43,706 nucleotides of DNA from Gammaproteobacteria bacterium (GTDB lineage Bacteria; Pseudomonadota; Gammaproteobacteria; Steroidobacterales; Steroidobacteraceae), in NCBI GenBank assembly GCA_029865465.1, contig JAOUGW010000002.1:1-43706 (forward strand), written 5' to 3'. Numbering within the stretch: the stretch's first letter is position 1; each line of letters begins with the position of its first letter. Below, piece by piece: positions 2,989-34,128 of the stretch. The translations under genes and the position numbers were made by a program. The notes under the pieces were generated by a model. It saw only the letters and a list, made by a program, of their open reading frames with translations, was not told the DNA's origin and made no database searches.

Positions 2989-3260
2989 GGGGGCTCCCGT
3001 TGCGTGCCGTGAACGGCGGTTGCGGTGGTACCGGCAATCTGGCCATTCTCGCCCGGATGAGATCGTATTTGACACACCGCGCTGGGCGGGCTCGGGATGT
3101 CGGCCGCTCGATGCTGTCCCCGGTCACCACCTCACTGCAATGACTTAGGTTCAGAATGGCGCGACGCAAGACCCGGCCCGGTTGCGATGGACTGCGCATC
3201 CAGAGTCCGGGACGCGTGGCGACCGGTCGGGTCGCGATGGAATCCAGAGGGGTTCGAACG

Positions 3261-5363: not shown

Positions 5364-5526
5364 CATACCTACCGACTGCCGGTGAGTGACCGCCGCGTCT
5401 GCAGGCGTCCAGGCGGGCCGATCGTCCTGCGACGGCGCTGCGGATGCCGTCCCCGAGCAAGCAGGGCAAAGCATGGAATCAAGTCACGTAATCTCCCTAT
5501 GTCACGCACGCGTGCCGGGGCGTATG

Positions 5527-5537
5527 CTGCATAGCAG
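5527..5537. promoter_or_regulatory. Candidate PhaR-type operator (CTGC-N3-GCAG)
   Basis: CTGC-ATA-GCAG lies 38 bases before the phasin-like start. The symmetry extends to TGCTGC-ATA-GCAGCA, and an overlapping CAGCA-AA-TGCTG follows at once. CTGC-N3-GCAG and TGC-rich sequence upstream of phaP are the reported targets of the polyhydroxybutyrate regulator PhaR in alphaproteobacteria. The match of motif to gene is suggestive, but no phaR lies in the window. Confidence 0.45.
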
Positions 5538-5575
5538 CAAATGCTGTTTCGTGGCATCCGTCCAAGGAGCAATCA

Positions 5576-6118
5576 ATGGTTGCCTATCTGAATGAGTTCG
5601 CGAGTGAACAGCGGCAGGTCCTGGCTGAGCAGGTGCAGAAGTTCCGTCAGCAGCCGATCGAGTCGATGCGCGAAGTCGCCGCGACTTCCGCTGACGGCAT
5701 CAAGTCGCTGAAGGCGCCCGTCCGCGCGTTTGCGCACTCGGGCGTGAAGCTGGTGGCGATATCGCAGAGCGCCATGCAGAACCTGATCGAACTGGAGTCG
5801 GAGGTCGTCACGTCGGCACTGACGGCTGCGGCTCTGCGTCTCGAGCGCGCCGCGGCAGCGGAGAACGTTGCCTACCTGCTGATCGAACAAGCCGAAATGC
5901 TTGGCGCTACCCGTGATCGCGTCGCAGATGAGGTGGCCCGTGCAGTCGAGATCTTCAGGGTTGCGGGCCGCGAAGTGCGCAAGGTCGGGACCCACCTGTA
6001 TGGCCAGGTCTTCGAGCGGGCCGAGGAAGCTCCCCTCAAGGCGAAGGGCGCCCGTGCCCGCAAGGCGAAGCGCGCGGTCCGGAAGCCGACCCCTCGCGCG
6101 CGCAAGGCCGCCGCCTGA
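5576..6118 (+). CDS. Phasin-like granule-associated protein
   Basis: A 180-residue, mostly helical protein with the phasin-family look: an amphipathic helical body (about 1-145) and an Ala/Lys/Arg-rich basic tail (KAKGARARKAKRAVRK). Phasins coat polyhydroxyalkanoate granules. Basic AAKP-like tails in some members have been linked to nucleoid binding, so this protein could tether granules to DNA (inference). The start is well fixed by AAGGAG six bases before ATG. A CTGC-N3-GCAG element lies in the leader and a strong hairpin follows the stop, so the gene appears to be monocistronic. No PHA synthase or depolymerase is present in the window, so the granule role is not confirmed by neighbours. 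Confidence 0.72.
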   Translation: MVAYLNEFASEQRQVLAEQVQKFRQQPIESMREVAATSADGIKSLKAPVRAFAHSGVKLVAISQSAMQNLIELESEVVTSALTAAALRLERAAAAENVAYLLIEQAEMLGATRDRVADEVARAVEIFRVAGREVRKVGTHLYGQVFERAEEAPLKAKGARARKAKRAVRKPTPRARKAAA

Positions 6119-6170
6119 GCGCCGGAAGCGCCCGGACCGACCCGCAGCGACTTGACCTTTCCCCCCTGCA

Positions 6171-6200
6171 AGCGCCCTCCCTGGAGGGCGCTGCCTTTTC
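6171..6200 (+). terminator. Rho-independent terminator after the phasin-like gene
   Basis: A perfect 10-bp inverted repeat (AGCGCCCTCC / GGAGGGCGCT) separated by two bases is followed by GCCTTTTCC. It lies about 50 bases after the phasin-like stop and before the CHASE2 gene. Confidence 0.75.
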
Positions 6201-6287
6201 CACGACCTTCTTCCCGGCTGCAAGGGCCGCCAGCCTGGCCCGGCAGCCTGCCAAACCTGCCATCATTTGCGGGGAGGGGAATCGTCG

Positions 6288-8132
6288 ATGATCGGCAGGC
6301 TGACGGACCGCGTGCTCTCCTGGATCGACGCCAGCCTGGCGGCATTCGGCCACGGCTTCATCCTCGCGTGGACCAGGGTCGAGCGCAGTTACCGGCGGCC
6401 GTTCTCGCAAGTCGCGTTGCGGCTGAAGTTCGCGTTTTATCCGCTGCTCGCGCTTGGCGCGATCGCCTGGCTCGCCTGGGACTGGAGCCACGCCCGCTCG
6501 CTCAACTCGGCCGAGGATGCGATCTTCGATCGCGTGGTCCAGTGGCGGCCGTTCGAACCGCAGCCTTCCGGTCGCGTGGTCGTGGTCGAAATCGACGAGT
6601 GCTCGATCGAATATTTCCGCGCCCGCAACGAAGGCGGCTGGCCGTGGAGCCGTCAACGGCACGCGGATCTGCTCGACCAGCTGGATCGAGCCGGGGTGCG
6701 CGCCGTCGGCTACGACGTGCTGTTTACCGATCCGTCGCAAAGCGATCCGGTCGGCGACGCAACCCTGGAGGCCATGGCGCAAGGCGGCGGCGGCCGCTTT
6801 GTCTTCAGTTCCACGCGACTGCATCCGGATTACGATGCGGGTTCGCCCGTGCGGGCGTCGCAGTCCCCGGCGGCGTTCGCGCTGCATGCCCATCCGCGAA
6901 TCGATCCGCAGGTCGCGTTGTTGCTGCCCTACGGCGAGGCGATGGCGGGCTTCAGCGCAATTGCCAACGTGACTCGCAGCGAGGATGGCGTACTGCGTGA
7001 CATTCCGTTGCGCGAGACCGTCGGCGACTGGGCCCTGCCGTCGCTGCCGTTGCGCCTGGCGACGACCGCGACGGCGCGATCACCTGGCGACCTCGCGGCC
7101 ATGGTGCGGCCGAACTGGCGACGGGACACGCGGCTGCCACGCATCAGCGCCGCCGACCTGCTGGCTGGCGGCCAACCCGTCTGCCGCGATGCGACGACCG
7201 CGCCGCCGGTCCTGAAGGATCGCGTGGCGCTGGTCGGCTACACGGCCTCCGGTCTCAACGATGCCAAGCCCACCCCGGTCGATCCGGTGATGCCGGGCGT
7301 GGAGGTCATGGCCGAGGCCACCGAGGCATTGATTGCCGGCAGCGCCATTCGGGCGCCGCCGGCGTGGCTCAAGTATGTCATTGCCATGCTGCTGGTCGCG
7401 CTGACCACGTTCGCTTTCTACCGCGGCGAACCGGCCACCGACATCGACTCGGTCTTCGTCGCCGCCAACGTGACGATGTTGACGGCCGCGTTCGTGGGTC
7501 TCACGTTCTTCGGGTTCTTCTTCGACATCTTCGCCAGCATCGGGTTTGTCGCCCTGGTCTTCGGCCTGTGTCGCCTGTACGCCGGCATACAGCGCGGACG
7601 TGCGGTGGGCAATGGCGATTTCCTGCCGGAGTTTGCGCCGGACCGGGACCGCTGGCTGGCGGTCGCGCGCCTGCGCTTCGTACCCGACGCGCAGCTCGAC
7701 GCCAGGGCCGCGGCGCGACGGCGACGGGAGTACCGTCGCCGGCTGCGGCGCTTCCTGTACGCCGGCAGCGATGCGGTGATGCTGGAGGGCGTGGTGGAAC
7801 GCAAGAGCTGGCTGCACGAAGCCCTGGACGACTTGATGGTGCTGGTCTGGCACGGTGCAAGCGAGGCTGCGGCGCGCGCTGCCGCCAGGCACGATCTCGC
7901 AAGGCTCGAGCGGCAGCTCGCGGAATACGACGAGCGCCTGCCCGATGACGGCAGCGTGCGCATCGCCTTCGCCTGCGCCGAAATCGACGATGGCGCCGCT
8001 GACACCGATCGCGGCGAGCGCCGGCGCCTGCGGGAACTGGTCGGCCAGGTGGTGGCTGCCGCGGGCGAATCGCCACTGGCGCGGCGCGCGACCTTCTTCG
8101 ATCATAGGGACGTGTCGTCGGGAGGCTCGTGA
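6288..8132 (+). CDS. CHASE2-domain membrane sensor without a recognised output domain
   Basis: A 614-residue membrane protein. One transmembrane helix (about 48-66) leads into a periplasmic CHASE2 sensory domain (about 70-360; note VVVVEIDECSIEYF, WPWSRQRHADLLDQL, GYDVLFTDPS). Three closely packed helices follow (about 365-440), the usual CHASE2 topology. The roughly 170-residue cytoplasmic tail is rich in Arg, Ala and Glu and probably helical. I see no histidine kinase, GGDEF, cyclase or Ser/Thr kinase motif in it. ATG 6288 is chosen over the TTG at 6267 because GGGGAGGGGA precedes it. The stop overlaps the M48 start by one base (TGATG), so the two are co-translated, suggesting that the sensor and the protease act together. 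Confidence 0.82.
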   Translation: MIGRLTDRVLSWIDASLAAFGHGFILAWTRVERSYRRPFSQVALRLKFAFYPLLALGAIAWLAWDWSHARSLNSAEDAIFDRVVQWRPFEPQPSGRVVVVEIDECSIEYFRARNEGGWPWSRQRHADLLDQLDRAGVRAVGYDVLFTDPSQSDPVGDATLEAMAQGGGGRFVFSSTRLHPDYDAGSPVRASQSPAAFALHAHPRIDPQVALLLPYGEAMAGFSAIANVTRSEDGVLRDIPLRETVGDWALPSLPLRLATTATARSPGDLAAMVRPNWRRDTRLPRISAADLLAGGQPVCRDATTAPPVLKDRVALVGYTASGLNDAKPTPVDPVMPGVEVMAEATEALIAGSAIRAPPAWLKYVIAMLLVALTTFAFYRGEPATDIDSVFVAANVTMLTAAFVGLTFFGFFFDIFASIGFVALVFGLCRLYAGIQRGRAVGNGDFLPEFAPDRDRWLAVARLRFVPDAQLDARAAARRRREYRRRLRRFLYAGSDAVMLEGVVERKSWLHEALDDLMVLVWHGASEAAARAAARHDLARLERQLAEYDERLPDDGSVRIAFACAEIDDGAADTDRGERRRLRELVGQVVAAAGESPLARRATFFDHRDVSSGGS

Positions 8133-9463
8133 TGCGCAACATCCTGTTCGCCCTGTTCACGCTCGCGCCGCTGGCATCGAGCGCGGGCGCCGCGGAGCTG
8201 CCGGCCGTCGTGCACAAGCCGACCGCGGACGTGTATGCCCAGCCCAGGTTCGATGCGCCGAAGCTCGCGACCCTGCAGCGTGACACGGAGGTCAGGATTT
8301 CCGCGCAGCAGGGGCTGTGGTACCAGTTACTGCTGTCCGCCGGGGCGCCGGGCTTCGTGCGCGTCAATGACGTGCGCGTGGCCTATGCCGGAGCAGAGGA
8401 TGGCGAAGCCAACCTGCGTGTGCTGATGGGAGGCAAGGCCGGCAAGGGCCGCGTCACCGAGACCGCCGGCGTGCGCGGCATCGACGAGAGCGATCTGCGA
8501 TCCGCATCGCTCAACCAGGCGCAACTGGACGCGATGGTCGGTCATCGGGTCGATGGATCCGCGGCTGCCGCGTATGCCGCGGAGCAGGGCTGGCAGGCGA
8601 CACGCGTGGCGTATGCCGGGGAGGCCAGGGCCGCGAAGAAGTCCGGGAATCCGCCAGCGGAGCCCGCGGCTTCGAAGACGGAGCTGGCGAGATCCGTGGG
8701 TGGCCTGCTCGGTTCACTGGGGGTCAATGTCGGCACGAAGCTGGACACGGCCGCCAAGGTGGCGCCGAAGTCCGAGGACGAGCTGGCCGCGGAGGAAATC
8801 GCGCTCGGCCCGGAACTCGCAGGCCGAATTCTCGGCGCGCGCCCGTTGTGGAGCGATGAAGGCGCGCAGCAGCATGTCAACCTCGTCGGACGCTGGGTCG
8901 CGTCGCAGACTAGTCGTCCCGGGCTGCCATGGACCTTTGGCGTGATCGACACGCCCGAGGTCAACGCATTCGCTGCGCCGGGCGGCTTCATCCTGGTCAC
9001 GCGCGGCCTGTACCAGCTGTTGTCGTCGGACAGCGAGCTCGCGGCGGTGCTCGGGCACGAAATCAGTCATTGCGTGCAGCGCGATCACTACAACGTGATC
9101 CACAAGCAGGAAGTGACGGCCGCCGGCAAGGACCTGGCGATGCAGGACGTCAGCGCCGGCAACGACAGCGTCGCCGGCAGCTACGCGCGGCGTTACGCCG
9201 AGAAGCACGGCGCCGCCATCATGCTGACATCACTGGATCGCAACGCGGAGTATCGCGCGGACGAAGCCGCGGAATTCTATCTCGCCCGAGCCGGCATGAA
9301 TCCGCTGGCCTTATATGCAGTCCTGCAGAAACTCACCGCACTCGGCAGCGAGTCGGCGAGCCTGGCGCAGCTCTACAAGACGCACCCGCCGCTGGCTGGG
9401 CGGCTCGATCGCATCGATCAGCGCGGGCTTGGCGCGCTGGAAACCTACGCGACGCGCGAGTGA
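8132..9463 (+). CDS. Exported M48-family zinc metalloprotease with SH3-like domain
   Basis: A 443-residue protein with a signal peptide (cleavage probably after SSAGAA), an SH3-like domain (about 25-90) and a long linker. The M48 peptidase domain (about 215-440) has zinc motif H309-E-I-S-H313 and third ligand E373 in NAEYRADE, the BepA/Oma1-like arrangement. The catalytic set is complete, so it should cleave or quality-control envelope proteins in the periplasm. A linker segment (LRVLMGGKAGKGR ... SASLNQAQLDAMVGHRVDG) matches nothing I know. ATG 8132 follows GGGAGG. The track's GTG at 8129 is possible but less likely. It is translationally coupled to the CHASE2 sensor upstream. Confidence 0.88.
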   Translation: MRNILFALFTLAPLASSAGAAELPAVVHKPTADVYAQPRFDAPKLATLQRDTEVRISAQQGLWYQLLLSAGAPGFVRVNDVRVAYAGAEDGEANLRVLMGGKAGKGRVTETAGVRGIDESDLRSASLNQAQLDAMVGHRVDGSAAAAYAAEQGWQATRVAYAGEARAAKKSGNPPAEPAASKTELARSVGGLLGSLGVNVGTKLDTAAKVAPKSEDELAAEEIALGPELAGRILGARPLWSDEGAQQHVNLVGRWVASQTSRPGLPWTFGVIDTPEVNAFAAPGGFILVTRGLYQLLSSDSELAAVLGHEISHCVQRDHYNVIHKQEVTAAGKDLAMQDVSAGNDSVAGSYARRYAEKHGAAIMLTSLDRNAEYRADEAAEFYLARAGMNPLALYAVLQKLTALGSESASLAQLYKTHPPLAGRLDRIDQRGLGALETYATRE

Positions 9464-9536
9464 GCGCCGGGACGCATTCGGGTGCTGCGTCGCAGTCATG
9501 CAGGGCAGTGCAGCGGAGGCGGACGAGGAACGTTCG

Positions 9537-9662
9537 TCAGGCCGGTCGTGGCGGGGGCTCGTCCTTCTGCTGCTGACGGCGCTGCTGCTTCTCTTCGCGC
9601 TTCTTCTTCGCGGCCTCTTCGCGCTGCTTCTTCTGCTGCGAGTAATTCGGGGGTCTGGGCAT
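9537..9662 (-). CDS. Small basic protein, 41 aa (missed by the ORF track)
   Basis: A 41-residue ORF, too short for the track, on the minus strand: it begins MPRPPNYSQQKKQREEAAKK and ends QQKDEPPPRPA. It is very rich in Lys, Arg, Gln and Glu, has no hydrophobic segment and is probably helical. Similar short proteins starting MPKPPNY or MPRPPNY and continuing with Lys/Arg/Glu runs recur in proteobacterial genomes as conserved hypotheticals (from memory). GGAG sits six bases before ATG. The plus-strand reading of the same DNA gives an artificial poly-Leu peptide, which is only its antisense. Function unknown; a nucleic-acid or ribosome contact is conceivable from charge alone. Confidence 0.72.
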   Translation of the reverse strand: MPRPPNYSQQKKQREEAAKKKREEKQQRRQQQKDEPPPRPA

Positions 9663-9818
9663 GGAGTCTCCACTTGCAATCGTGACTATCGAGCAGGGTA
9701 ACGGTTGCACGGTCCGGGGAACAGTGGTGGCCGTGGCGGGGAGGCCGGGGACCGCCTGCGGATGCTAGGCTCTGGAGGGCGGACGAACCACTGCCCCTCC
9801 AGCGAGGATCAAGACAAC

Positions 9819-10922
9819 GTGTTCGACATCACTGCCTCCGTGCGGCTGCGTCCCTCCCCGTATTATGAAGCCACGCTGGCCGAGGGCGTCACCGGGTTCC
9901 AGCCGTATAACCGCATGCTCCTGCCCACGAGCTTCGGCGATCCGGAAGCGGAATACTGGCGCTTGATCAAGGGTGTCGTGCAATGGGACGTCGGCTGCGA
10001 GCGGCAGGTGCAGCTGACGGGGCCGGACGCCGGGCGGCTCGCGCAGATCCTGAGTCCTCGCGACCTGACCCGTTGCAGGGCAGGCCAGGGCAAGTACGTG
10101 CCGCTGTGCAACCACGCGGGCGTGCTGATCAATGACCCGGTCCTGCTCAAGCTCGACGAGGACCGTTACTGGCTGTCGATCGCGGATTCTGACATCTGGC
10201 TCTGGGCGCAGGCGATCGCCGCCGAGCGCCGGCTCGACGTCGAGATCAGCGAACCCGACGTCTCGCCATTGGCGGTACAGGGGCCACGAGGCGAGGACGT
10301 GGTCGCTGCGATCTTCGGTGACTGGGTACGCGAGCTGAAGTACTTCTGGTTCCGTGAGACTGCAATCGAGGGCATCCCGCTCGTGGTCGCACGCTCGGGC
10401 TGGTCGAAGCAGGGGGGATTCGAGCTGTACCTGATGGACGGAGCACGCGGCACGCAGCTGTGGAATATCGTCAAGGAAGCCGGCAGGCGCTGGGACATCG
10501 GCCCCGGCGCGCCCAACACCTGCGAGTGGGTGGAGAGCGGACTGCTGTCTTTCGGCGCCGACACCGATGACGCCACGAACCCTTACGAAGTGCGCCTGGG
10601 CAAGTACGTGGAATTACAGGTGCCGGACGAGGTGATCGGCATACAGGCGTTGCGCCGCATCCATGCCGCAGGTCCCCGGCGTCACCAGCTCGGCCTGGTG
10701 CTGCACGGGCACGAGCCGATCGCGCTGCGCTCGAGCTGGCACACGATCCGCAAGGGCAACGAGAACGTGGGTAGCCTCACCAACTGCATGTGGTCCTACC
10801 GTCTCAAGCGGAACATCGGCTATGCATTGATCTCGATGGCCTGCAACCCGGGCGACGCTGTTGAGGTCATTCACGAGGGGCGGCCGCTCGCCGGCGCCCT
10901 GACGGGGTTGCCGTTCCTCTAG
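9819..10922 (+). CDS. DmdA-like / GcvT-family THF-dependent demethylase
   Basis: A 367-residue aminomethyltransferase-fold protein. It resembles dimethylsulfoniopropionate demethylase DmdA (about 369 aa) more than true GcvT. Shared features as I remember them include YNRMLLPTSF, VVQWDVGCERQV, NDPVLLKLDE, ISIADSD-like LSIADSD, ARSGWSKQGG and WVESGLLSFG. The fold binds tetrahydrofolate and accepts a methyl or one-carbon group. No glycine-cleavage P or H genes lie beside it, so a stand-alone demethylase role is likely. The substrate (DMSP, a betaine or another methylated compound) cannot be read from sequence. GTG at 9819 (GAGGA upstream) gives the family length; the track's 9705 start adds a non-conserved extension. 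It converges on the MFS gene. Confidence 0.8.
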   Translation: MFDITASVRLRPSPYYEATLAEGVTGFQPYNRMLLPTSFGDPEAEYWRLIKGVVQWDVGCERQVQLTGPDAGRLAQILSPRDLTRCRAGQGKYVPLCNHAGVLINDPVLLKLDEDRYWLSIADSDIWLWAQAIAAERRLDVEISEPDVSPLAVQGPRGEDVVAAIFGDWVRELKYFWFRETAIEGIPLVVARSGWSKQGGFELYLMDGARGTQLWNIVKEAGRRWDIGPGAPNTCEWVESGLLSFGADTDDATNPYEVRLGKYVELQVPDEVIGIQALRRIHAAGPRRHQLGLVLHGHEPIALRSSWHTIRKGNENVGSLTNCMWSYRLKRNIGYALISMACNPGDAVEVIHEGRPLAGALTGLPFL

Positions 10923-18634: not shown

Positions 18635-20443
18635 CTAGCCGGCCGACGGCGAAGCCGGGCGGCTGCTCAAGTCGCGCAGCATTTCGATGAAGGCGGGATC
18701 GTCGCGCAGGGAGACCAGGTCCGGGTCGTTCTGCATCCAGCCGAAATTGGTGTAACCGGCTTCGACGGCCTGGCGCAGCGCGTCGATGGCCCGGCTCGAC
18801 TCGCCAAGACCGACGTACATGCACGCGGCGTTGTAGAGCATGACCGGATCGCCGGGGCTGAGCACGAGTGCCTTGGCGCCCTCGCGGATCGCCTCTTCCT
18901 TGCGACCAGCCCAGCCGAGCTTGCTCGCGTAGATCAATCGCGCGCGCGCATCGTCGGGATTCTGCAGCAGGTAATTCGGCATGATTTCGAGCAGGCGACG
19001 ATAGACCGTTGCCGCTTCTTCGTCGCGCCCGAGCCCGGCGCATGTTTGCGCCACGTCCAGGTGGCCCGCATAGAAGCTCGGCTTGATCTCGGCCACGCGC
19101 CGGAAGAGGTCGAGCGCCTGTTCGAGCTTGCCCTCGGTGAAGTAGATCCGCCCGAGCGTCCAGTGCGCGATGAAGTCATCGGGGTCGATTTCGATCGCCT
19201 TGGTGCACGAGGCGGTGGCCTCGTTCAGCTTGCCCCAGAGAAAATAGGACAGTCCCATCGCCCGGTACGCTTCCGACAGGTTGTTGTCGTACATCAGCGC
19301 CTTGAAGCTGAGTTCCTGCGCCAGTTCGCGATAACGCTCCTCGCGCGCGATCAGCTGGTACATCTGGCCGTAGGCGCTGGAGCAACCGGCATACGCGGAC
19401 GCGTAACGCGAGTCGAGTTCGATCGCCTTCTCGAACAGCTGGATCGCGTATTCGACGCTGCGCTTGGTCAGCCGGTAGAGCTGGTCCTGGCCACGCAGGT
19501 AAAGGTCGTAGGCTTCCGCATTGAGGGTCTGCCGCTTGGTGAGCGACAGTCGTTCCGAGAAAGTGAGCTTGAGCTTCAGTGCCTCGACGATCTGCTGGGC
19601 GACCTGCTCCTGGATGTCGAAGATATCGTCGAGCTTGCCCTTGTAGGTGTTGCCCCAGAGCTGCAGGTTGGTCACGACGTCGACGAGCTGCACGGTAATG
19701 CGCACCGAATCCTGGAACCGGCGGACGCCACCGCCGACGATGTAGCGTGCGCCGAGCGCATTGCCGATCGCGAGCACGTCCTGGCCCCGGCCCTTGTGCT
19801 GCATCGAGGCCCAGCGTGAAATCAGGTTGATCTCGCTCACGAGCGACAGCCTCGCGATCAGTTCCTCGGTCAGCCCGTCGCTGAAGTAGTCGGTCTCGGG
19901 ATCCGGGCTGATGTTGTCGAACGGCAGCACGGCCACCGCCCCGCGCTCCGGGAGGGAGTCGGCCGCATGCGCTGCGGCGGCAGGGGCAGGTCGTGTTTCC
20001 GCACCGGCGCCGGCAGCAGGCTGCGGGCGCATGATGGTGACGCCCAGGCCCGTCAGCGAGCGCAGGACGGCCTGCAGGTTTTCCTCTGGATCGCCGTGGT
20101 AGAACTCGATGTGCTGGATGCCGGCGAGCGGGTACTTGAGGCCGAGTGGAATCGTCGTCGGCTCGAGGTGAACGGGCAGGATGTTGCCCTTGCGTTCGCT
20201 CGTCAGCATCACTTCCTTCGCCACGTTGTGGGAGCTGACAGCCGACGGCGAGACCATCAGCAGCAGCACCTTGGCCCCCTCGAGCGCACGCACGATGGAT
20301 TCGCCCCAGAGCGCTGCGCCGTCGATGCCGCCCTGGTCGATCCAGATATTCACGCCGGCGGCCCGCAGTTTGCCGGCAAACTCGAGTACCCGCGCCTTGT
20401 CTTCGCGCGAATAGCTCAGGAAAACATCTGCGGTTTGAGCCAA
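18635..20443 (-). CDS. TIR - FlgO-like - TPR signalling protein
   Basis: A 602-residue protein with three parts. A TIR domain (about 5-130; VFLSYSREDK, VNIWIDQGGI, VSPSAVSSHNVAKEV with E77 near the place of the NADase glutamate) is followed by a Pro/Ala linker. Next comes a FlgO/TolB-like domain (about 168-300; VAVLPFDNISPDPETDYFSDGLTEEL), seen in CadC-like regulators and class III cyclases. A TPR solenoid runs from about 310 to 600. There is no signal peptide, so it is probably cytoplasmic. In related TIR_2/TPR proteins the TIR domain may bind or cleave NAD. Whether this is defence, signalling or housekeeping cannot be told here; no defence neighbours are present. The start is TTG at 20443 with AGGG about seven bases before it. 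Confidence 0.82.
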   Translation of the reverse strand: MAQTADVFLSYSREDKARVLEFAGKLRAAGVNIWIDQGGIDGAALWGESIVRALEGAKVLLLMVSPSAVSSHNVAKEVMLTSERKGNILPVHLEPTTIPLGLKYPLAGIQHIEFYHGDPEENLQAVLRSLTGLGVTIMRPQPAAGAGAETRPAPAAAAHAADSLPERGAVAVLPFDNISPDPETDYFSDGLTEELIARLSLVSEINLISRWASMQHKGRGQDVLAIGNALGARYIVGGGVRRFQDSVRITVQLVDVVTNLQLWGNTYKGKLDDIFDIQEQVAQQIVEALKLKLTFSERLSLTKRQTLNAEAYDLYLRGQDQLYRLTKRSVEYAIQLFEKAIELDSRYASAYAGCSSAYGQMYQLIAREERYRELAQELSFKALMYDNNLSEAYRAMGLSYFLWGKLNEATASCTKAIEIDPDDFIAHWTLGRIYFTEGKLEQALDLFRRVAEIKPSFYAGHLDVAQTCAGLGRDEEAATVYRRLLEIMPNYLLQNPDDARARLIYASKLGWAGRKEEAIREGAKALVLSPGDPVMLYNAACMYVGLGESSRAIDALRQAVEAGYTNFGWMQNDPDLVSLRDDPAFIEMLRDLSSRPASPSAG

Positions 20444-25674: not shown

Positions 25675-26004
25675 ATGCAACAAAGCACCCTGCAAGAGAT
25701 CCTCGGCGTCGAAGAGGAAATTCGGGAGAAGCTCGACGCCGAGCGCGAGAAAGCGGGCCAGTGGCTCGAGGATGAGCGGCGCCGGCTTCTGGCGGAGCAC
25801 ACGGCCGAGATGGGGCGTCTGCAAGGCAGCTCGAGCCAGGGCGAGGCTGCAGCAAGGGAGGCCGCGCGTAGGAGCGCCGCGGAGATCGTCAGTCAGGCGC
25901 AAGCAGCGGCACATGCCATGGAGCGCGATCGCGACGATGCCTTGAGAGATCTCGTTGCCCGGCACATCGCCTGCATCGTCCCGGGGTCTTCCAGTGCTCG
26001 TTAG
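25675..26004 (+). CDS. V/A-type ATPase subunit H/G-like (peripheral stalk)
   Basis: A 109-residue helical, Ala/Arg/Glu-rich protein at the head of the ATPase operon, where the peripheral-stalk subunit (NtpF/AhaH/Thermus G type) normally sits. The pattern ILGVEEEIREKLDAEREKAGQWLEDERRRLL and the later AEIVSQAQAAAHAMERDR suits a right-handed coiled coil that pairs with subunit E. Sequence conservation in this subunit is low, so the call rests on composition and position. ATG 25675 has no strong ribosome site, and an earlier in-frame start is conceivable. The end overlaps the subunit I start by 11 bases. Confidence 0.75.
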   Translation: MQQSTLQEILGVEEEIREKLDAEREKAGQWLEDERRRLLAEHTAEMGRLQGSSSQGEAAAREAARRSAAEIVSQAQAAAHAMERDRDDALRDLVARHIACIVPGSSSAR

Positions 26005-27874
26005 GATGTCCAAGGTCGAGATCACGGGTCCTCGCGACGAGCTGCTGCCCGTGCTCGAGACGATCGAGCGTGCCGGAGTCCTGCAGATCGATCCCGAGAT
26101 CAAGGGGCGAATCGACGAAGGCGCCGTGCCGCAGGTCCGCCCGCTGGCCCTCGACGGCAAGATGCTGGCCGAGCGGCTGTTCCTCGAGGACCTTAGCGTG
26201 AAGGTCGATCGGCTGCTGGAACTGCTGCCGAAAGTTGCAACGCGGGAGTCCTACCTGAGCGCGTCGCGTGCGATGAACTCCATCGCGGCGGTGATCGGCA
26301 AGCACCTGGCGTCTGCCGAGGAACGCGCGCGACGACGGGAGGCGTTGCAGGGGGAACTGGCGCAACTCAACCGTTACACGGTGTTCCTCTCGACCGTCGA
26401 GTCGCTGGCTCCCAAGGGTGCCGAGGCCGCGGGTCTCGAGTTCATCGGCGTCGAAGTCCGTGACCCCGCCGCGCTGGAGCAACTGACCCGCGTTGCGGGC
26501 CGGCTGCTGCTCGGCACGGAAGTGCGCACTGCGCGGGCCGAGGATGGCTCCTACATCGGGTTGCTCACGACGGAAAAGGATCTCGCGGCCCGGCTGAAAG
26601 AAGGCCTGCGTGATAACCACATCCCGGAAATCGCGTTGCCCGGTTATCTCGCAGGCCTGTCGTTGCCGGAGAAGATCCGGGCGACACGGGCGCGTCTGGA
26701 GGCACGGCGGGCCGATCTCGCGGCAATTGACGAGGAGGCTCAAGACTTCGCGCTGTCATGGCGCGGACTCTACGCGAACGTCCGGGAGTGGCTGGGCCGC
26801 CGACTCGTGCTGTTGCGGACCAGCGCGTCAATGTACGAAACTGACCGCTGCTTCGTGCTGTACGGCTGGATGCCGTCCGTCAGCGTGGATGGGTTGCGCA
26901 AGTCGCTCGTGGCAAAGCACGGTGAGACGGTGGTCGTCGAGGAACGCGAGATCCTGCAGCAGGATCTCGACGACGTGCCGGTGGCGCTGCGCAATCCGCC
27001 GTATTTCCGGCCGTTCGAGCTGTTACTGCGGCCGCTGCCCGCGCCCCGCTACACGTCGATCGATCCGACGCCGTTCATCGGCATATTCTTCCCGCTGTTC
27101 TTCGGCATGATCCTCGGCGACATCGGCTATGGGCTCGTGTTGCTGCTGGTGGCGGCCGGTCTCGTCGTGTTCGCCAGGGGCCGTCGGACGTTGCGGCAGA
27201 TCGGGCAGATCCTGGCAGTTGCCTCCGTCTACTCCATCATTTTCGGGGTGCTGTACGGGGAGTGTTTCGGTGCATCGGGCGCGCAGTGGCTCGGCTTCGA
27301 ACGGGCCTGCATCGACAGGCGCACATCGATCGTGCCGATGCTCTACTTCGCCCTGGCCATCGGAGCCGTCCATGTGCTCATCGGGCTGGCCCTGGGCATC
27401 GTCTCGTCAATGAAGGGGCACCACAGGCGCGAAGCGCTGTCCCGGCTGTTCAGCATCCTGGCCTTGCTCTGCGTGGCGGGAGTGCTCGCGTCCTATTTCG
27501 CACCGGTCGCCGCGCTGCTCAGGAAACCGCTGCTGATGGCGATGCTGGTGATCGGCCCGGTGCTGTTGCTGACGGGCGGATTGCTGGCGCCGTTCGAGTT
27601 GCTCCGGCACCTCGGCAACATCGTTTCCTACGCGCGCATCATGGCCGTTGGCCTCGCATCGGTGCTGCTCGCGTACGTTGCCAACGAACTCGCCGGCGCT
27701 GCGGGCAGCGTCTGGGTGGGCATCGCTGTCGCTGTGCTGCTGCATGCGTTCAATATCCTGCTCGGCGTGTTCGCGCCGACGATCCACGCGCTGCGCCTGC
27801 ACTACGTCGAGTTCTTCGGCAAGTTCATCGAAACAGGCGGCCGGCGCTACGAGCCGCTCAAGAAGGTCGACTGA
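25994..27874 (+). CDS. ntpI: V/A-type ATPase subunit I (a-type stator, ion channel)
   Basis: A 626-residue membrane subunit. A cytoplasmic N-terminal half with coiled-coil arms (about 1-335) is followed by a membrane half with about seven or eight helices (PFIGIFFPLFFGMILGDIGYG begins the first). The helix SYARIMAVGLASVLLAYVANEL contains the arginine expected to face the rotor ring glutamate during ion transfer. GTG at 25994 gives the common MxVxMSKVEI-like beginning; ATG 26006 is the alternative. It overlaps the H gene and is followed ten bases later by the proteolipid gene. It forms the stator ion half-channels of the V/A rotary enzyme. Confidence 0.92.
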   Translation: MLVRMSKVEITGPRDELLPVLETIERAGVLQIDPEIKGRIDEGAVPQVRPLALDGKMLAERLFLEDLSVKVDRLLELLPKVATRESYLSASRAMNSIAAVIGKHLASAEERARRREALQGELAQLNRYTVFLSTVESLAPKGAEAAGLEFIGVEVRDPAALEQLTRVAGRLLLGTEVRTARAEDGSYIGLLTTEKDLAARLKEGLRDNHIPEIALPGYLAGLSLPEKIRATRARLEARRADLAAIDEEAQDFALSWRGLYANVREWLGRRLVLLRTSASMYETDRCFVLYGWMPSVSVDGLRKSLVAKHGETVVVEEREILQQDLDDVPVALRNPPYFRPFELLLRPLPAPRYTSIDPTPFIGIFFPLFFGMILGDIGYGLVLLLVAAGLVVFARGRRTLRQIGQILAVASVYSIIFGVLYGECFGASGAQWLGFERACIDRRTSIVPMLYFALAIGAVHVLIGLALGIVSSMKGHHRREALSRLFSILALLCVAGVLASYFAPVAALLRKPLLMAMLVIGPVLLLTGGLLAPFELLRHLGNIVSYARIMAVGLASVLLAYVANELAGAAGSVWVGIAVAVLLHAFNILLGVFAPTIHALRLHYVEFFGKFIETGGRRYEPLKKVD

Positions 27875-27884
27875 GGAGAAAACC

Positions 27885-28118
27885 ATGGATGCTGTCGTGA
27901 ACATGGACAAGGTCCTGATGGCCTTCGCCGCCGCGCTGGCGCTGGGGATCAGCGCACTCGCCACCGCCTGGGTGCAGTCGCGGATCGGTGCGTCCGGTGC
28001 GGGTGCGCTGGCCGAAAAGCCGGAGCTGACGGCGACGATCATCATCCTGCTGGCGATTCCGGAAACGATCGTGATCCTGGGCTTCGTGATCGCCGCGATG
28101 ATCCTGCTGCAGGTATGA
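27885..28118 (+). CDS. ntpK: V/A-type ATPase proteolipid subunit K (c ring)
   Basis: A 77-residue, two-helix hairpin with the ion-binding glutamate in LLAIPETIVILGFVIA. The family includes four-helix forms (about 155 residues, Enterococcus) and two-helix forms (Thermus type); this is the short form. The first helix (FAAALALGISALATAW) does not show the glutamine that I would expect for the classic Na+ site, so proton coupling is slightly favoured (weak inference). ATG 27885 follows GAGGAG. It makes the rotor ring that contacts subunit I. High expression relative to its neighbours would be expected because many copies are needed. Confidence 0.9.
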   Translation: MDAVVNMDKVLMAFAAALALGISALATAWVQSRIGASGAGALAEKPELTATIIILLAIPETIVILGFVIAAMILLQV

Positions 28119-28121
28119 GCG

Positions 28122-28706
28122 ATGGGCCGGGAGGCGCTGATCGAGTCGCTGCGCAACAGGGCGACCGAGGACGTGGAGGCGCTCTGGCGCGACGTCCGGG
28201 CGCAGGCTGAGGCGTACCGCCTCGAACTGGCGCACGCGCTCGAGCGGCAGCGCGTGCGGGAAGCGCAGGCGGCAGCCGCGCTTGCACGACAGCTTCAAGA
28301 CGATGCGACCGCCGAAGCACGGCATCGTGCCCGCGAGATCCGTACCCAGGCCGTACTCGTTCTCGCGGATCGACTCTACAGGCTGGCAATCATGCAGCTG
28401 CCGACAATGCGCGTAGCGAACGGTCTGGAGCTCTTCCAGGCACTGGCTCGCGAGTTGCCGCAGCGGGACTGGCAGCGCGTCCGCGTGAATCCAGCGGATC
28501 GGGAGGCCGCGTCCGAGCGATTCCCGTCCGCTGAAGTCGTGTGCGATCCGGCCATCTGTGGCGGATTGCATGTGGAAGCGGACGGGGGGCGGATCCGCGT
28601 GAGCAACACGCTCGAGACACGCCTGGAAACGGCGTGGCCCGACGTGCTCCCGCGACTGATCAACGACCTGCCAGGGGAGCCCGATGGCCATCGAACTGCT
28701 TCGTGA
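28122..28706 (+). CDS. ntpE: V/A-type ATPase subunit E (peripheral stalk)
   Basis: A 194-residue protein with a long N-terminal helix rich in Ala, Arg and Glu (about 1-85) and a C-terminal alpha/beta domain (about 95-190; CDPAICGGLHVEADGGRIRVSNTLETRLE). GG(L/V)-x-VE-x2-DG-x-I-x2-SNTLE is the recognisable subunit E signature. It pairs with the H-type subunit to hold the A3B3 head against the stator. It begins three bases after the K stop and overlaps the subunit C start by 23 bases. The length is normal. Confidence 0.92.
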   Translation: MGREALIESLRNRATEDVEALWRDVRAQAEAYRLELAHALERQRVREAQAAAALARQLQDDATAEARHRAREIRTQAVLVLADRLYRLAIMQLPTMRVANGLELFQALARELPQRDWQRVRVNPADREAASERFPSAEVVCDPAICGGLHVEADGGRIRVSNTLETRLETAWPDVLPRLINDLPGEPDGHRTAS

Positions 28707-29622
28707 CATCGCGTCCGACGGCTACCCGACGGACTATCTGCTGGCGCGGGTGCGTGCCCGGCGCGCGGCGCTGACGGCGCAGTGGCGAGCGATCCATGCA
28801 CGCGGCCTGCCTGCGGAGGTCACGGACGACGCCATCTGGGAAGGATTCCTGCGTGAACTCGGCTGGCTGCGAGGCCAGATGAATCGCCGACTCCGGACGA
28901 GCGTCGATCCGGTGTTCGGGTTGTTCGAGCTGAAGACCCTCGTGCTGTGCCTGCGCTGCAAAGCCGTGCAGCGGGACGCCGAGATCGCGCGGCTGCTCGC
29001 AGCAAGCCAGGTCTCCGACGCGCTGCGACAGGCGCTGTTGCAGGAAACGGATGTCCCGGCCGCGGTCGCGTCCATTGCCGTCGCATTGGAGCCTGCGGAC
29101 GATGCCGAGGCATCGCTGCGACGCGCCTATGCGCAGGCAGGGCTCAAGGGCTTCGAGACACGACTGACGCGGAGCTATCTCGGGCACGTGAACGACGCCC
29201 GCCTGCATCCGCTCGTCCGGAGATTCTTCGCGTCCTTCGTCGATCTGCGCAATCTCATGACGCTCTACAAGCTGCTGCGCTGGGAAATGGACGACGCGGC
29301 GGCGTTCCTGACGGGTGGCACGATCGGAGTGGAACGCCTGCAGCGCATTGGGGCAGCCCGGGACGCTGCGGGCCTCGATCCCATGGTCCGCGAGATTGCG
29401 GGCCGCGCGGCACCGCCGCTGGCGACGGCAGAAGGTTCCCTCGAGACGATCCTGCTCGGCAGCCTGTCCCACAAGGTTCGCAGCCTGGGCCGGCAGGAAG
29501 ATCCGGTCGGCACGGTCCTCGACCATGCGTGGCGCGTCTACATCCACGCGCGCAATCAATCCCTGCTGCTGCACGCCGGCCATCTCGATTCAGCAGGACT
29601 CGAGAAGGAGCTGGTCGCGTGA
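28684..29622 (+). CDS. ntpC: V/A-type ATPase subunit C (central-stalk socket)
   Basis: A 312-residue all-helical protein of the V-ATPase C/AC39 (d-type) family, which sits on the membrane ring and couples the D/F shaft to it. Recognisable parts include YLLARVRARRAAL at the start, a middle LRTSVDPVFGLFELKTLVLCLR (family: nLE-x-K-x2-LR) and the later HVNDARLHPLVRRFFASFVDLRNLMTLYKLLRW. It is close to the usual 320-340 residues. ATG 28684 lies inside the end of the E gene. The stop overlaps the F start by four bases (GTGA). Confidence 0.88.
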   Translation: MAIELLRDIASDGYPTDYLLARVRARRAALTAQWRAIHARGLPAEVTDDAIWEGFLRELGWLRGQMNRRLRTSVDPVFGLFELKTLVLCLRCKAVQRDAEIARLLAASQVSDALRQALLQETDVPAAVASIAVALEPADDAEASLRRAYAQAGLKGFETRLTRSYLGHVNDARLHPLVRRFFASFVDLRNLMTLYKLLRWEMDDAAAFLTGGTIGVERLQRIGAARDAAGLDPMVREIAGRAAPPLATAEGSLETILLGSLSHKVRSLGRQEDPVGTVLDHAWRVYIHARNQSLLLHAGHLDSAGLEKELVA

Positions 29623-29942
29623 GAAAGATCGTAGTGATCGCTCCACCCGATTCGCGTCCCGGTTTCGCACTGGCCGGGGTCCGGCAGCTGAGCGCGAGCC
29701 CGGACGAACTGCCGGTCCTGCTGCGACAGCTGGTGCGCGATCCGCTGAATGGCGCCGTCATCGTCGACGAGCGGTTGGCGACTGGCAGTGCCCGCGAATA
29801 CATCCGGGAGCTCGATCGACGCTGGACCGGCCTCGTCATCGTACTTCCTGCGCCCGAGCGGGCAGGTGCCGTCGCGGAGGAGGATTACGTCCTGCAACTG
29901 ATTCGTCGTGCGATCGGCTACCAGGTGAGGTTGAGCCTGTGA
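29619..29942 (+). CDS. ntpG: V/A-type ATPase subunit F (central stalk)
   Basis: A 107-residue alpha/beta protein with the subunit F layout: RKIVVIAPPDSRPGFALAGVR, then NGAVIVDERLA and LVIVLPAPERAG. It forms the rotating shaft together with D. It starts with GTG at 29619 after AAGGAG, overlaps subunit C by four bases, and overlaps subunit A by four bases at its end. The small size and low conservation are normal. The assignment is supported by its position between C and A, as in Enterococcus (where it is called NtpG) and archaeal operons. Confidence 0.88.
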   Translation: MRKIVVIAPPDSRPGFALAGVRQLSASPDELPVLLRQLVRDPLNGAVIVDERLATGSAREYIRELDRRWTGLVIVLPAPERAGAVAEEDYVLQLIRRAIGYQVRLSL

Positions 29943-31561
29943 GCGGTCGAATCATCGGCATTTCCGGCCCGACCGTCAGCGTGGACCTGGCCGGGCTCAA
30001 GCTCTATGAGCGCGTGGTCGTCGGCGAGGCCGGACTCATGGGCGAGGTCGTGCGCCTCGAGCGAGGACGTGCCGTCGTCCAGGTCTACGAAAACACGCGC
30101 GGCCTCGCGATTGGCGAGCCGGTCGTCGGCACTGGCACGCAGTTGACGGCTCGGCTCGGCCCGGGCCTGTTGCGCCAGATGTTCGACGGGCTGCAGCGAC
30201 CGCTCGCGGCGATGCACCAGTCGCAGGGACCTTTCCTTCTTCCAGGTGGAACAGGCGCAGGCACGACCGCAGCGATGAAGCTGCGCTTCACGCCGACAAA
30301 ATCACGAGGCGACGCGATCCGGGTCGGCGAGTCTGTCGGTTACGTCGACGAAGGGGCATTCCGCCATCCGATTCTTGCTGTCGACTGCGAGGGCACGATC
30401 GATGAAATCAAGGACGGCGAGATCGGGCTGGAGGAGGCCGTAGCGGCCTTGACCGACGGCCGACGGGTCTTCGCCTGCCATGACTGGCCCGTGCGACTGC
30501 CGCGGCCCTATCGGCGCAAGCTGTCGCGCTTCGAGCCGCTGACCACAGGGCAGCGTTGCATCGACTTCCTGTTCCCGCTGGCCCGTGGCGGCAGCGCCAT
30601 TTTTCCCGGCGGCTTCGGCACCGGCAAGACGCTGCTCGAGCAATCGATCGCGAAGTTCGCCGAGGTGGACATCGTCGTCTACGTGGGTTGCGGCGAGCGC
30701 GGCAACGAGATGGCCGAGATGCTCGACGACTTTACCGTGCTCAGCGATCCGTGGAGCAAGCGGCCACTGATGGAACGCACCATCGTCGTCGTGAACACGT
30801 CGAACATGCCGGTGGCGGCGCGCGAGGCCTCGATCTACACGGCCATCACGATGGCGGAGTACTACCGGGACCTCGGTTACAACGTGTTGCTGCTGGCCGA
30901 CAGCCTGTCGCGCTGGGCGGAGGCGCTGCGGGAGATTTCCGCGGCACTCGAAGAGATGCCGGGCGAGGAGGGGTACCCCACCTATCTTGGTTCGCGCATG
31001 GCGGAGTTCTTCGCGCGTGCGGGAGTGGTCGAAACACTCGACGGCCGCATCGGCTCGCTCACGGTGCTGTTGTCGATCTCGCCTCCGGGCGGTGACTTCT
31101 CGGAGCCGGTGACGCAGGCGTGCCTGCGCAATACGGGCGCGTTCTTCATGCTCGACACTTCGTTGGCGCACCGCAGGCACTTTCCGGCAATCAACTGGTT
31201 CCAGAGCTTCTCGCTGTACGAAGCGGACGTCGTCGCGCAACTCGATCAGCAGGTTGCCGCGGAGTGGGGAGCGCTCAGGCAGCGCACGCGAGCGCTGCTG
31301 CAGCGGGAAGAGAGCCTGCGCGAGGTCGCCGAGATCGTGGGTACCGAGGGGCTGCAGGAGGCGGACCGCCTGTTGATGCGTACCACGGCGCGCATCCGGC
31401 AAACATTCCTCGCCCAGAACGCATATACCGAGGACGCCTTTTCCACGCCGGCACAGACCTACCAGAAGATCCGCCAGCTGCTCGACGAACACCAGGCGGC
31501 GAGCGAGCGGCTGGAGCGTGGCGAGTCGCCCGCGCACGATGCCGAGGTTCACCCGTCATGA
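29939..31561 (+). CDS. ntpA: V/A-type ATPase catalytic subunit A
   Basis: A 540-residue catalytic subunit. It has a beta-barrel N-terminus (IIGISGPTVSVDLAG), the A-type insertion region (about 100-190) and a P-loop G224-GFGTGKT-231 followed by the GCGERGNEMAE catalytic-glutamate block. The nucleotide-site stretch LADSLSRWAEALREIS and EEGYPTYLGSRMAEFFARAG are also present. The catalytic motifs look complete. At 540 residues it is shorter than the common 580-600, mainly in the insertion and C-terminal parts. GTG 29939 overlaps the F stop (GTGA) and the stop overlaps the B start (ATGA). It hydrolyses or makes ATP at the A/B interfaces. Confidence 0.96.
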   Translation: MSGRIIGISGPTVSVDLAGLKLYERVVVGEAGLMGEVVRLERGRAVVQVYENTRGLAIGEPVVGTGTQLTARLGPGLLRQMFDGLQRPLAAMHQSQGPFLLPGGTGAGTTAAMKLRFTPTKSRGDAIRVGESVGYVDEGAFRHPILAVDCEGTIDEIKDGEIGLEEAVAALTDGRRVFACHDWPVRLPRPYRRKLSRFEPLTTGQRCIDFLFPLARGGSAIFPGGFGTGKTLLEQSIAKFAEVDIVVYVGCGERGNEMAEMLDDFTVLSDPWSKRPLMERTIVVVNTSNMPVAAREASIYTAITMAEYYRDLGYNVLLLADSLSRWAEALREISAALEEMPGEEGYPTYLGSRMAEFFARAGVVETLDGRIGSLTVLLSISPPGGDFSEPVTQACLRNTGAFFMLDTSLAHRRHFPAINWFQSFSLYEADVVAQLDQQVAAEWGALRQRTRALLQREESLREVAEIVGTEGLQEADRLLMRTTARIRQTFLAQNAYTEDAFSTPAQTYQKIRQLLDEHQAASERLERGESPAHDAEVHPS

Positions 31562-32922
31562 CGGCCACCGCCGCCTACACCACGCGACTGAGCCGGCACA
31601 GTTACTCGACACTGCGCAGCATCCAGGGACCACTGCTCTTCGTCGAGAAGGTCAGTGACGCGCGCATGAGCGAAGCGGTCAGGATCGTGTTTCCGGACGG
31701 GCACGAGGCGGCCGGTGAGGTGCTGCGGATCGAGGGTGACACGGTACTGATCCAGGTCATCGGCGACAGCCGCGGCCTCGACATGGACCACACCGAGGTC
31801 GTGTTCACGGACTCAGTCAAGCGCGCCCCGTTGTCACCGGGCGTGCTCAACCGCACCTTCGGCGGTTCGTTCCAGCCGCTCGATGGCCTGCCGATGTTCG
31901 TGCCGGAGCGCTGGGCCCCGGTGTCCGGCTTTCCGCTTAACCCGGTCGCCCGCGAGCGCCCGCAGGAATTCATCGAAACCGGGCTGTCGTGCATCGACGG
32001 CCTGAACACGCTGGTCAAGGGCCAGAAGCTGCCGATCTTCTCCTGCGCCGGGTTGCCGTCGAGTGCCATCGTTGCCAGCGTCCTTGCGCATGCGCGTTCT
32101 GGTGGCGTCAACGTCGCGGGCACCGGTTCAGGTTCGGTGGTCGTGTTCGTGGCGCTCGGGCTCGCACATCACGAGTACGCGTTCTACCGGCAGACGCTCG
32201 AACGGCTCCAGGGTGACTTCGTCGCGTTCATCAACCTGGCGCGGGATCCGGTCGTCGAGCGTTTGCTGGCGCCGCGGTTCGGGCTCAGCGTCGCTGAGTA
32301 CCTCGCGTTCGAGCAGGGCAGGGACGTGCTGGTGGTCATCACCGACATGACCAACTATTGCGACGCGCTACGTGAGGTCTCCACCGCACGGGAGGAATTG
32401 CCGGGTCGGCGCGGCTATCCGGGCTACCTGTACTCCGACCTGGCATCGCTCTATGAGCGTGCCGGACGCATCAAGCAGCGCCCCGGTTCGGTGACACTGC
32501 TCCCGGTCGTCACGATGCCCGAGGACGACATCACGCACCCGATTCCCGACCTGACGGGGTACATCACCGAGGGCCAGATCGTGCTGAGCCGCGAGCTGCA
32601 TCAGCGCGGTATCTTCCCGCCCGTGGACGTGCTGCCGAGCCTGTCGCGGCTGATGCAGCGTGGTATCGGCAAGGGACATACGCGCGAAGACCACCGCAAG
32701 ATCGCCAATGCCCTCTACATGCATTACGCCAGTGGGCGGGACCTGCGGCGGCTGGAGGCCATCGTCGGACGCGAGAGCATGGGTGATTCCGACAAGCGCA
32801 TGCTCGACTTCGCCGAGGCCTTCGAACGCGAGATCGTGCACCAGGGCGATGCGCGCCGCGGCATCGGTGAGACATTGGATCTGAGCCTGGCATTGCTGCA
32901 GAAATTCGGCCTGTCCGCATGA
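31558..32922 (+). CDS. ntpB: V/A-type ATPase non-catalytic subunit B
   Basis: A 454-residue B subunit. It shows YSTLRSIQGPLLFVEKV at the N-terminus, a degenerate P-loop region (FSCAGLPSSAIVA, lacking GxxxxGKT, as expected for B), DVLVVITDMTNYCDALREVS, and ELPGRRGYPGYLYSDLASLYERAGR. It alternates with A in the head and contributes the arginine finger. The length is normal (450-470). ATG 31558 overlaps the A stop by four bases and its own stop overlaps the D start by four. It is clearly distinct from F-type alpha/beta chains. Confidence 0.96.
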   Translation: MTATAAYTTRLSRHSYSTLRSIQGPLLFVEKVSDARMSEAVRIVFPDGHEAAGEVLRIEGDTVLIQVIGDSRGLDMDHTEVVFTDSVKRAPLSPGVLNRTFGGSFQPLDGLPMFVPERWAPVSGFPLNPVARERPQEFIETGLSCIDGLNTLVKGQKLPIFSCAGLPSSAIVASVLAHARSGGVNVAGTGSGSVVVFVALGLAHHEYAFYRQTLERLQGDFVAFINLARDPVVERLLAPRFGLSVAEYLAFEQGRDVLVVITDMTNYCDALREVSTAREELPGRRGYPGYLYSDLASLYERAGRIKQRPGSVTLLPVVTMPEDDITHPIPDLTGYITEGQIVLSRELHQRGIFPPVDVLPSLSRLMQRGIGKGHTREDHRKIANALYMHYASGRDLRRLEAIVGRESMGDSDKRMLDFAEAFEREIVHQGDARRGIGETLDLSLALLQKFGLSA

Positions 32923-33641
32923 TCCACCCGACCCGCACCGACCTGCTGCAGCTGGAGGAAAAGGCCACGTCGATCGCGAACAGCGTGGCCATCCTGAAAG
33001 CACGGCGCCAGGCGCTGATCCGTGGCTTCCTCGAATCGGTGCGTCCCCTCGTGCGTTCCCGCGATGCGATCCGGCGCGACTACGGCATCGCCATCGACGA
33101 GCTGCACCTGAGCGAAGGACACGAGGGGGCCGCATTCGTGGAGACACTCGCCGCACTCTCGGAGCGAGAGGTGGGTGTCGACATTGCGGAGCGTAACCTC
33201 CTCGGTGTCCGCTATCGGGAGCTCGTGGCTTTCGGGCCATTTGTACGGATGCCGCCGGAACGCGCCTACGATTACACCGTCACCACGCCGCATCTCGAGG
33301 AGGCGGTCCATCGCTTCGAGTCGGTGCTGGAGACCGTGCTTGAGATCGCTGCGTTCGAGAGCAAGCTCAAGATGCTCGGCGAAGAGATCCTCGCGGTCAC
33401 GCGGCGGGTACGTGTCCTGGAGGAACGGGTCTTGCCGCGCCTGCGAACAGAGATCCGCTCCATCGTGCAGTTCCTGGGCGAGCGCGAACGCGAGGCTCAC
33501 TATCGGCTCAAGAAGTTCAAGTCGGACCGGCGCGGCGGTGCCTTCAGTGTCCCGCCTTCTCGTACGTGCCCACCAGTTCGGCGCGCGCCAGCACGTGGCC
33601 TTGCATCGCTGCCTCCACCTGCGCCCTGGTCGGGTGCTTGA
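32919..33641 (+). CDS. ntpD: V/A-type ATPase subunit D (central shaft), C-terminally extended
   Basis: A 240-residue protein, mostly two long helices forming the rotor shaft: the N-terminal part (RTDLLQLEEKATSIANSV) and the C-terminal part (FESKLKMLGEEILAVTRRVRVLEE ... EREAHYRLKKFKSDR) match subunit D. Family members usually end soon after RLKK-x-K (about 205-215 residues). Here the frame runs on for about 32 more residues of Pro/Arg/Ala-rich sequence, read antisense through the end of the PEBP gene. The extension probably reflects a lost stop and may be disordered. It is the last gene of the operon; no terminator separates it from the convergent PEBP gene. Confidence 0.92.
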   Translation: MIHPTRTDLLQLEEKATSIANSVAILKARRQALIRGFLESVRPLVRSRDAIRRDYGIAIDELHLSEGHEGAAFVETLAALSEREVGVDIAERNLLGVRYRELVAFGPFVRMPPERAYDYTVTTPHLEEAVHRFESVLETVLEIAAFESKLKMLGEEILAVTRRVRVLEERVLPRLRTEIRSIVQFLGEREREAHYRLKKFKSDRRGGAFSVPPSRTCPPVRRAPARGLASLPPPAPWSGA

Positions 33642-34080
33642 GACCGTCGAGCATGACGTCCAGCGCGTACAGCCTGTGAAAGTAGCGATGCCGGCCAATG
33701 GGCGGGCACGGGCCGCCATAGCCCGTGCGTTTCCAGTCGTTCAGGCCTTCGACCGTTCCCTTGGGCAGGGCCGCCGGCGCGATGCCCTCCGGCAGTCCGG
33801 CTGCATCCACGGGCAGGTTTGCCAGCACCCAGTGAACCCAGGTCATTCTGGGCGCGCGTGGATCAGGCGCGTCTGGATCGTCGACGATCAGCACCAGTGA
33901 TTTCGCGCCCGCCGGCATGCCTTGCCAGCGCAGTGGCGGCGAAACATCGTTGCCTTCACACGTGTAGCGCCTGGGTATCGCTGCGCCGGGGCCGAATGCC
34001 GTCGATGAGAGTTCCATTGCCATGGCGGGGCCTCCTGTCAGCAGCGCGATCAGCAAGAAGAACGTGTTTCCTGGCGTCAT
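33544..34080 (-). CDS. Exported PEBP/YbhB-family protein
   Basis: A 178-residue member of the phosphatidylethanolamine-binding (Raf kinase inhibitor-like) family with a signal peptide (FFLLIALLTGGPAMA-ME). The family marks are DDPDAPDPRAPRMTWVHWVL and GPCPPIGRHRYFHRLYALD, which build the anion-binding pocket. Bacterial members (YbhB/YbcL) have poorly known roles, and exported ones have been linked to envelope or host interactions in some species. ATG 34080 has GGAG seven bases before it, so the 34110 start is rejected. The last 98 bases overlap the ATPase subunit D frame on the other strand. Confidence 0.9.
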   Translation of the reverse strand: MTPGNTFFLLIALLTGGPAMAMELSSTAFGPGAAIPRRYTCEGNDVSPPLRWQGMPAGAKSLVLIVDDPDAPDPRAPRMTWVHWVLANLPVDAAGLPEGIAPAALPKGTVEGLNDWKRTGYGGPCPPIGRHRYFHRLYALDVMLDGLKHPTRAQVEAAMQGHVLARAELVGTYEKAGH

Positions 34081-34128
34081 TTTGCGACTCCATTGGTGGT
34101 TAGTCGACACATCGCCTGCCTGCCCGAA

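Follow-up and report, generated by a model that had tools for sequence, protein, structure and literature searches.

A complete V/A-type rotary ATPase operon of probable Nitrospirota-like origin in a gammaproteobacterial genome with two other rotary ATPases

Background

The V/A-type ATPase/synthase of Thermus thermophilus is built from nine subunits and has a single-hairpin rotor subunit, and its genes are arranged in the order G/H-I-L/K-E-C-F-A-B-D. The operon that we describe here shares these traits, including the gene order, and among solved structures it is the Thermus enzyme that lies closest to its subunits K and I and to a model of its subunit A. The two systems differ in that the catalytic subunit A of our operon is 38 residues shorter than the 578-aa Thermus protein, through absence of the C-terminal end, and in that its host also has an F-type enzyme, whereas to our knowledge Thermus has none. 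The Na+-V-ATPase of Enterococcus hirae likewise occurs alongside an F-type enzyme, but its rotor subunit is a double hairpin with a full Na+ site that includes Gln65, a ligand absent from the single-hairpin K of our operon.

V/A enzymes have been called rare in Proteobacteria (PMC6504805). For the Nitrospirales, one report gives a V/A ATPase beside the F-type enzyme in 4.8% of genomes and suggests that it serves either to make ATP or, by hydrolysis, to regulate pH (PMC12342949); our likening of those enzymes to the present one is at the level of that description and not of single operons. The Nitrospirota V/A-type ATPases that we examined ourselves are the nearest to our operon in the phylogenetic tree and resemble it in their short subunit A and in being accessory to an F-type enzyme, but they differ by host phylum and are only 58-66% identical to it in A. 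We refer to the kind of V/A operon studied here as type 1 and to the kind that is common in gammaproteobacteria as type 2; the two are 41-51% identical to each other.

Gene Content of the Operon

The window, by which we mean the whole analysed stretch of 43,706 nucleotides, is contig C165 of a metagenome-assembled genome (MAG) from the Steroidobacteraceae that comprises 3.36 Mb in 367 contigs and is estimated to be 91% complete with 1.75% contamination. Positions 25675-33641 are occupied by nine contiguous open ORFs, all on the + strand, in the order H-I-K-E-C-F-A-B-D. The products of eight of them score above the curated Pfam cut-offs (gathering score) within this single operon. The predicted membrane sector consists of the stator a-like subunit I (26006..27874, 622 aa; PF01496, 1e-19), which aligns end to end with its Thermus thermophilus counterpart with both arginines (R544 and R597) conserved, and of the proteolipid c subunit K (27885..28118; PF00137, 7e-16), a protein of 77 aa that forms one hairpin, as expected from the short two-helix proteolipid of the preliminary description. 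These genes are followed by those for the peripheral-stalk subunit E (28122..28706, 194 aa; PF01991, 3e-8), the shaft socket C (28684..29622, 312 aa; PF01992, 4e-12) and the central-shaft subunit F (29619..29942, 107 aa, GTG start; PF01990, 4e-8), and then by the genes for the catalytic subunit A (29939..31561, 540 aa, GTG start; PF00006 at 3e-71, PF22919 and PF16886), the non-catalytic subunit B (31558..32922, 454 aa; PF00006 at 7e-70, PF22919; PRK04196, E 8.5e-181) and the central-shaft subunit D (32919..33641, 240 aa; PF01813 at 2e-34 over residues 9-201).

The ninth ORF (25675..26004) encodes a coiled coil of 109 aa for which Pfam and NCBIfam gave no match and PDB families gave only chance coiled coils. 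In six related operons the gene that immediately precedes I aligns with it (29-56% identity), and by its fitting size, its position and these homologues it is assigned as the putative G-like peripheral-stalk subunit H. Gaps of 1, 10 and 3 bases separate H from I, I from K and K from E; E and C overlap by 23 bases, and each of the junctions C/F, F/A, A/B and B/D is a 4-base overlap, so that the spacing of 3-23 bases reported earlier was nearly exact (gaps 1-10, overlaps 4-23). Among fully assembled operons, the nine closest to this one all keep the order I-K-E-C-F-A-B-D, which is far beyond chance.

Residues that we take, from their roles in the family, to be catalytic or to line the ion channel are all present: the Walker A motif of A (224-231), R364 at the arginine-finger position of B, R544 and R597 of I and E60 of K. 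Subunit A also has the barrel-sandwich domain (PF16886), and its match to PRK04192 covers positions 4-540 of 588. When A was modelled with AlphaFold (mean pLDDT 73), the model aligned with Thermus A along its full length with a TM score of 0.82, and on this model the protein is predicted to fold as a V/A catalytic subunit. An N-ATPase, that is, a laterally moved F-type enzyme, was considered and rejected: the models for alternate F1F0 alpha and beta subunits score far below cut-off, and A and B match best to V-type models. By its gene content the operon is judged to encode a complete V/A-type rotary ATPase, a known kind of machine, and the full set of nine subunits announced in the preliminary description is thereby upheld, eight of them by Pfam and H by position and homologues. 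The proposed design follows the Thermus and archaeal enzymes: the head would be A3B3, the D-F shaft would sit on the C socket, the ring of single-hairpin K subunits would run against the stator subunit I, and E and H would serve as side stalks.

Some further features of the window may be recorded here. Subunit D extends by about 35 aa at its C-terminus beyond most homologues, and the last part of its gene (33544-33641, +) overlaps, on the opposite strand, the end of a convergently oriented gene of the PBP/YbhB family (33544-34110, -). Elsewhere, the window encodes a TIR-domain protein with TPR repeats (18635-20443, -), a possible signalling or defence protein, and, at its edge, a ferredoxin-type 4Fe-4S protein with an FlpD/MvhD-like domain (2-1354, +).

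Coupling Ion

In sodium-type rotors the position equivalent to residue 62 of K is occupied by Ser, Thr, Gln or Arg, and that equivalent to residue 65 by a Tyr that steadies the ion-binding Glu; impaired Na+ binding is predicted for single-hairpin rotor subunits that lack one of the ligands (PMC2359735). The ion-site residues of K and I, whose inspection had been recommended, give a picture of K in which Q31, E60 and T61 are retained and are followed by I62 and L65, beside the two channel arginines of I; the complete set of Na+ ligands, including a polar residue two positions after the Glu, is not found in K. Residue 62 is always Ile or Met in type-1 K subunits, with Met in most relatives, and it is Leu in the rotor subunit of the Thermus V/A-ATPase, which is also the best PDB match of K (6qum_O, 6e-12).

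If the enzyme were a V-ATPase that pumps sodium, as in Enterococcus hirae, this would agree with the retention in K of three side chains that serve as sodium ligands (Gln31, Glu60 and Thr61) and with the Nqr/Rnf-type membrane subunit that is encoded in the genome; the latter, with a fragment of a membrane pyrophosphatase, makes a sodium cycle possible in this organism. Against it, the polar ligand, which in E. hirae is Gln65, is replaced by Ile62 and the stabilizing Tyr by Leu65, and the Thermus rotor subunit shows the same pattern. We consider sodium pumping unlikely for these reasons, and favour H+ as the probable coupling ion, with the reservation that sequence rules of this sort are not proof.

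Other Rotary ATPases in the Same Genome

A search of the assembly for an F-type operon, as had been proposed, found a complete one on contig C161 (3618-10826), with genes for atpI, a, c, b, delta, alpha, gamma, beta and epsilon and with the usual Asp in its c subunit (AGLIDAAFLIG). Contig C138 carries, at 2546-10502, a second complete but divergent V/A operon, of type 2. It shares with the window operon the V/A-type set of nine genes, but differs from it in its gene order (H-C-I-K-F-E-A-B-D) and in its A, which is full-length at 582 aa and 44% identical to the A of the window. Its H, C and E have no Pfam match and were assigned by place and size. Its K is extended by an extra segment at the N-terminus and, unlike the K of the window, carries an AEGIAIYG motif without the Gln or Thr ligands, a pattern pointing to H+. 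The genome encodes three rotary ATPases, namely the window V/A, the C138 V/A and the C161 F-type enzyme, and the former suggestion that the window operon specifies an additional enzyme holds. A literature search of partial coverage returned no report of three rotary ATPases in one cell. A FliI-like ATPase is encoded on contig C195 of the same genome.

Type 2 is also present in four of the five gammaproteobacterial carriers of type 1, and an F-type alpha subunit above the curated cut-off was detected in 11 of 14 genomes, Nitrospirota included, in which this operon or one closely related to it is present. For the five gammaproteobacterial carriers the corresponding count is three; G025 has a fragment, and in G112, a genome that is 71% complete, the only F-type matches are beta-like. 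Since most carriers have an F-type enzyme, the type-1 V/A ATPase is best viewed as an accessory enzyme.

Distribution and Origin

Type 1 was detected in four of 120 genomes of the family (two of nine in the genus) and in two of 296 sampled genomes of the order, and it was absent from the 368 other genomes of the class and the 398 other genomes of the phylum that were sampled. The gammaproteobacterial carriers number five in all (G000, the genome of the window, G112, G025, G084 and G555); nearly all relatives are MAGs, as is the window genome. In G555 the apparent loss of I, together with H, was traced to a run of N near position 13640, just upstream of K, at a scaffold join; the single contig of that carrier is accordingly not free of gaps and is no proof against misassembly. 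Some V/A subunit A of any type occurs in 44 of 369 genomes of the class, so that V/A enzymes are uncommon there but are not as such exceptional, which qualifies the statement of the preliminary description that proteobacteria normally rely on the F-type enzyme.

Outside the order, the type-1 members among the best 80 loci come only from Nitrospirota, one Desulfobulbaceae MAG and one 'Deltaproteobacteria' MAG. Their A subunits are 58-66% identical to that of the window, after which identities within the same 80 loci drop to 51% or less, in archaea and other bacteria. In a tree of A plus B (39 taxa, LG+C20), the five gammaproteobacterial copies group together, their sister is the Nitrospirota operon L043, and they lie nested within a type-1 clade otherwise made up of Nitrospirota and Desulfobacterota, each of these groupings with support of 100/100. 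A topology that joins the gammaproteobacterial type-1 copies with type 2 was rejected (delta lnL 355, p about 2e-63), as was one in which the type-1 members from outside the Gammaproteobacteria form a separate clade (p 3e-6). Mis-binning of L043 was suspected and could be set aside: its contig has the GC and tetranucleotide profile of the MAG to which it is assigned, and the sister relation is therefore not a binning error. The nesting of the five copies bears out the earlier view that the operon was acquired and points to a probable Nitrospirota-like donor, from which an ancestor of the order, or several of its members, would have taken it.

Alternatively, the order might have inherited this V/A ATPase vertically since ancient times, with subsequent loss from most of its members. 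The branching among the five gammaproteobacterial copies does follow genus, family and order, and the composition of the operon is that of its host. Vertical inheritance of an operon common in the order had been named at the outset as the outcome contrary to acquisition; the counts given above (4/120 in the family, 2/296 in the order, none in the other class and phylum samples) are those of a rare gene set, the nested position of the copies and the rejection of a separate non-gammaproteobacterial clade speak against this history, and the carriers have no flanks in common. We regard such a history as improbable; vertical inheritance at the level of the class is disfavoured, while vertical descent within the order after a single acquisition is possible. 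In the stretches that were fetched, no flanking genes are shared among carriers, not even with the copy from the same genus, and for this reason one old acquisition followed by losses is not separable from several transfers within the order.

Nor did the flanks, apart from H, contain conserved genes that hint at function, other than Hyp-like genes common to two Nitrospirota loci. Downstream of the V/A operon, these loci (L043, 4301-9813, and L045, 11348-16569) carry genes that resemble those for hydrogenase maturation (HypE-, HypF- and HypD-like by eye). Such neighbours might reflect a possible link to hydrogen metabolism.

The operon would by now be fully adjusted to the base composition of its host. 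Its GC content of 0.661 equals that of both flanks, and its tetranucleotide distance to them is 0.13-0.17, versus 0.36-0.87 to two Nitrospirota loci. The contig also agrees with the remaining contigs of the MAG in GC content and tetranucleotide profile. This host-like composition argues for an old transfer and for a contig that belongs to this MAG. Contamination by another organism, to which the division of the MAG into 367 contigs and the lack of flanks shared with the same-genus copy might lend some credence, is very hard to reconcile with that fit, with the low contamination estimate of 1.75% and with the related copies in four other assemblies of the order.

The Short Catalytic Subunit

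All 12 type-1 members have an A of 532-552 aa, versus 559-615 aa in 131 other complete A subunits. Alignment places the difference at the end of the protein, where about 45 residues present in other A subunits are absent; the alignment of the A of the window stops at position 542 of the 588-residue Pyrococcus protein and at position 535 of the 578-residue Thermus protein. A deletion of one residue slightly upstream of this end is also common to the clade. The window protein has this truncation of ~45 residues and falls within the clade, and is a type-1 member on both counts. The preliminary description was right about its unusual shortness (540 aa), but this is not peculiar to the genome and marks the whole clade; since the same truncation is found throughout, it is a trait of the clade and not decay, and the type-1 subclade would at some point have lost the last ~45 residues of A. 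That the operon is decayed and non-functional, as the missing residues of A and the extension of D into the convergent neighbour gene might suggest, is scarcely credible when an identical truncation is fixed in 12 of 12 clade members from three phyla, every frame is open and the catalytic residues are retained.

Implications

Taken as a whole, the observations are best explained, and in our judgement with high probability, by a complete accessory V/A ATPase that derives from a Nitrospirota-like donor, belongs to a subclade with a short A and is most likely coupled to H+. A bolder proposal, that it represents an undescribed, laterally spreading V/A subtype, with a C-terminally truncated A and a place as accessory to the F-type enzyme, found in cells with three complete rotary ATPases, is offered tentatively and is rather doubtful.

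The physiological role is inferred: the enzyme would act as an accessory, reversible ATPase/synthase beside the F-type synthase and the second V/A. With one carboxylate per K hairpin, the ratio of ions to ATP is high, a condition favourable to making ATP when the driving force is low, and we lean slightly towards such synthesis as the working direction over hydrolysis for control of pH or membrane potential.

The value of the finding lies in its identification of a probable donor, in the truncation of A throughout a clade and in the triple set of rotary ATPases. It would be a case in which all nine genes of a rotary ATPase passed from one phylum to another, and the shortened A that characterizes the clade provides a structural variant of the catalytic subunit that is small but clear-cut. 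If the bolder proposal is true, the three rotary ATPases in cells of this order may share work according to driving force or ion. The retention of a nine-gene rotary enzyme beside two others makes it a testable matter why a cell should keep several such motors.
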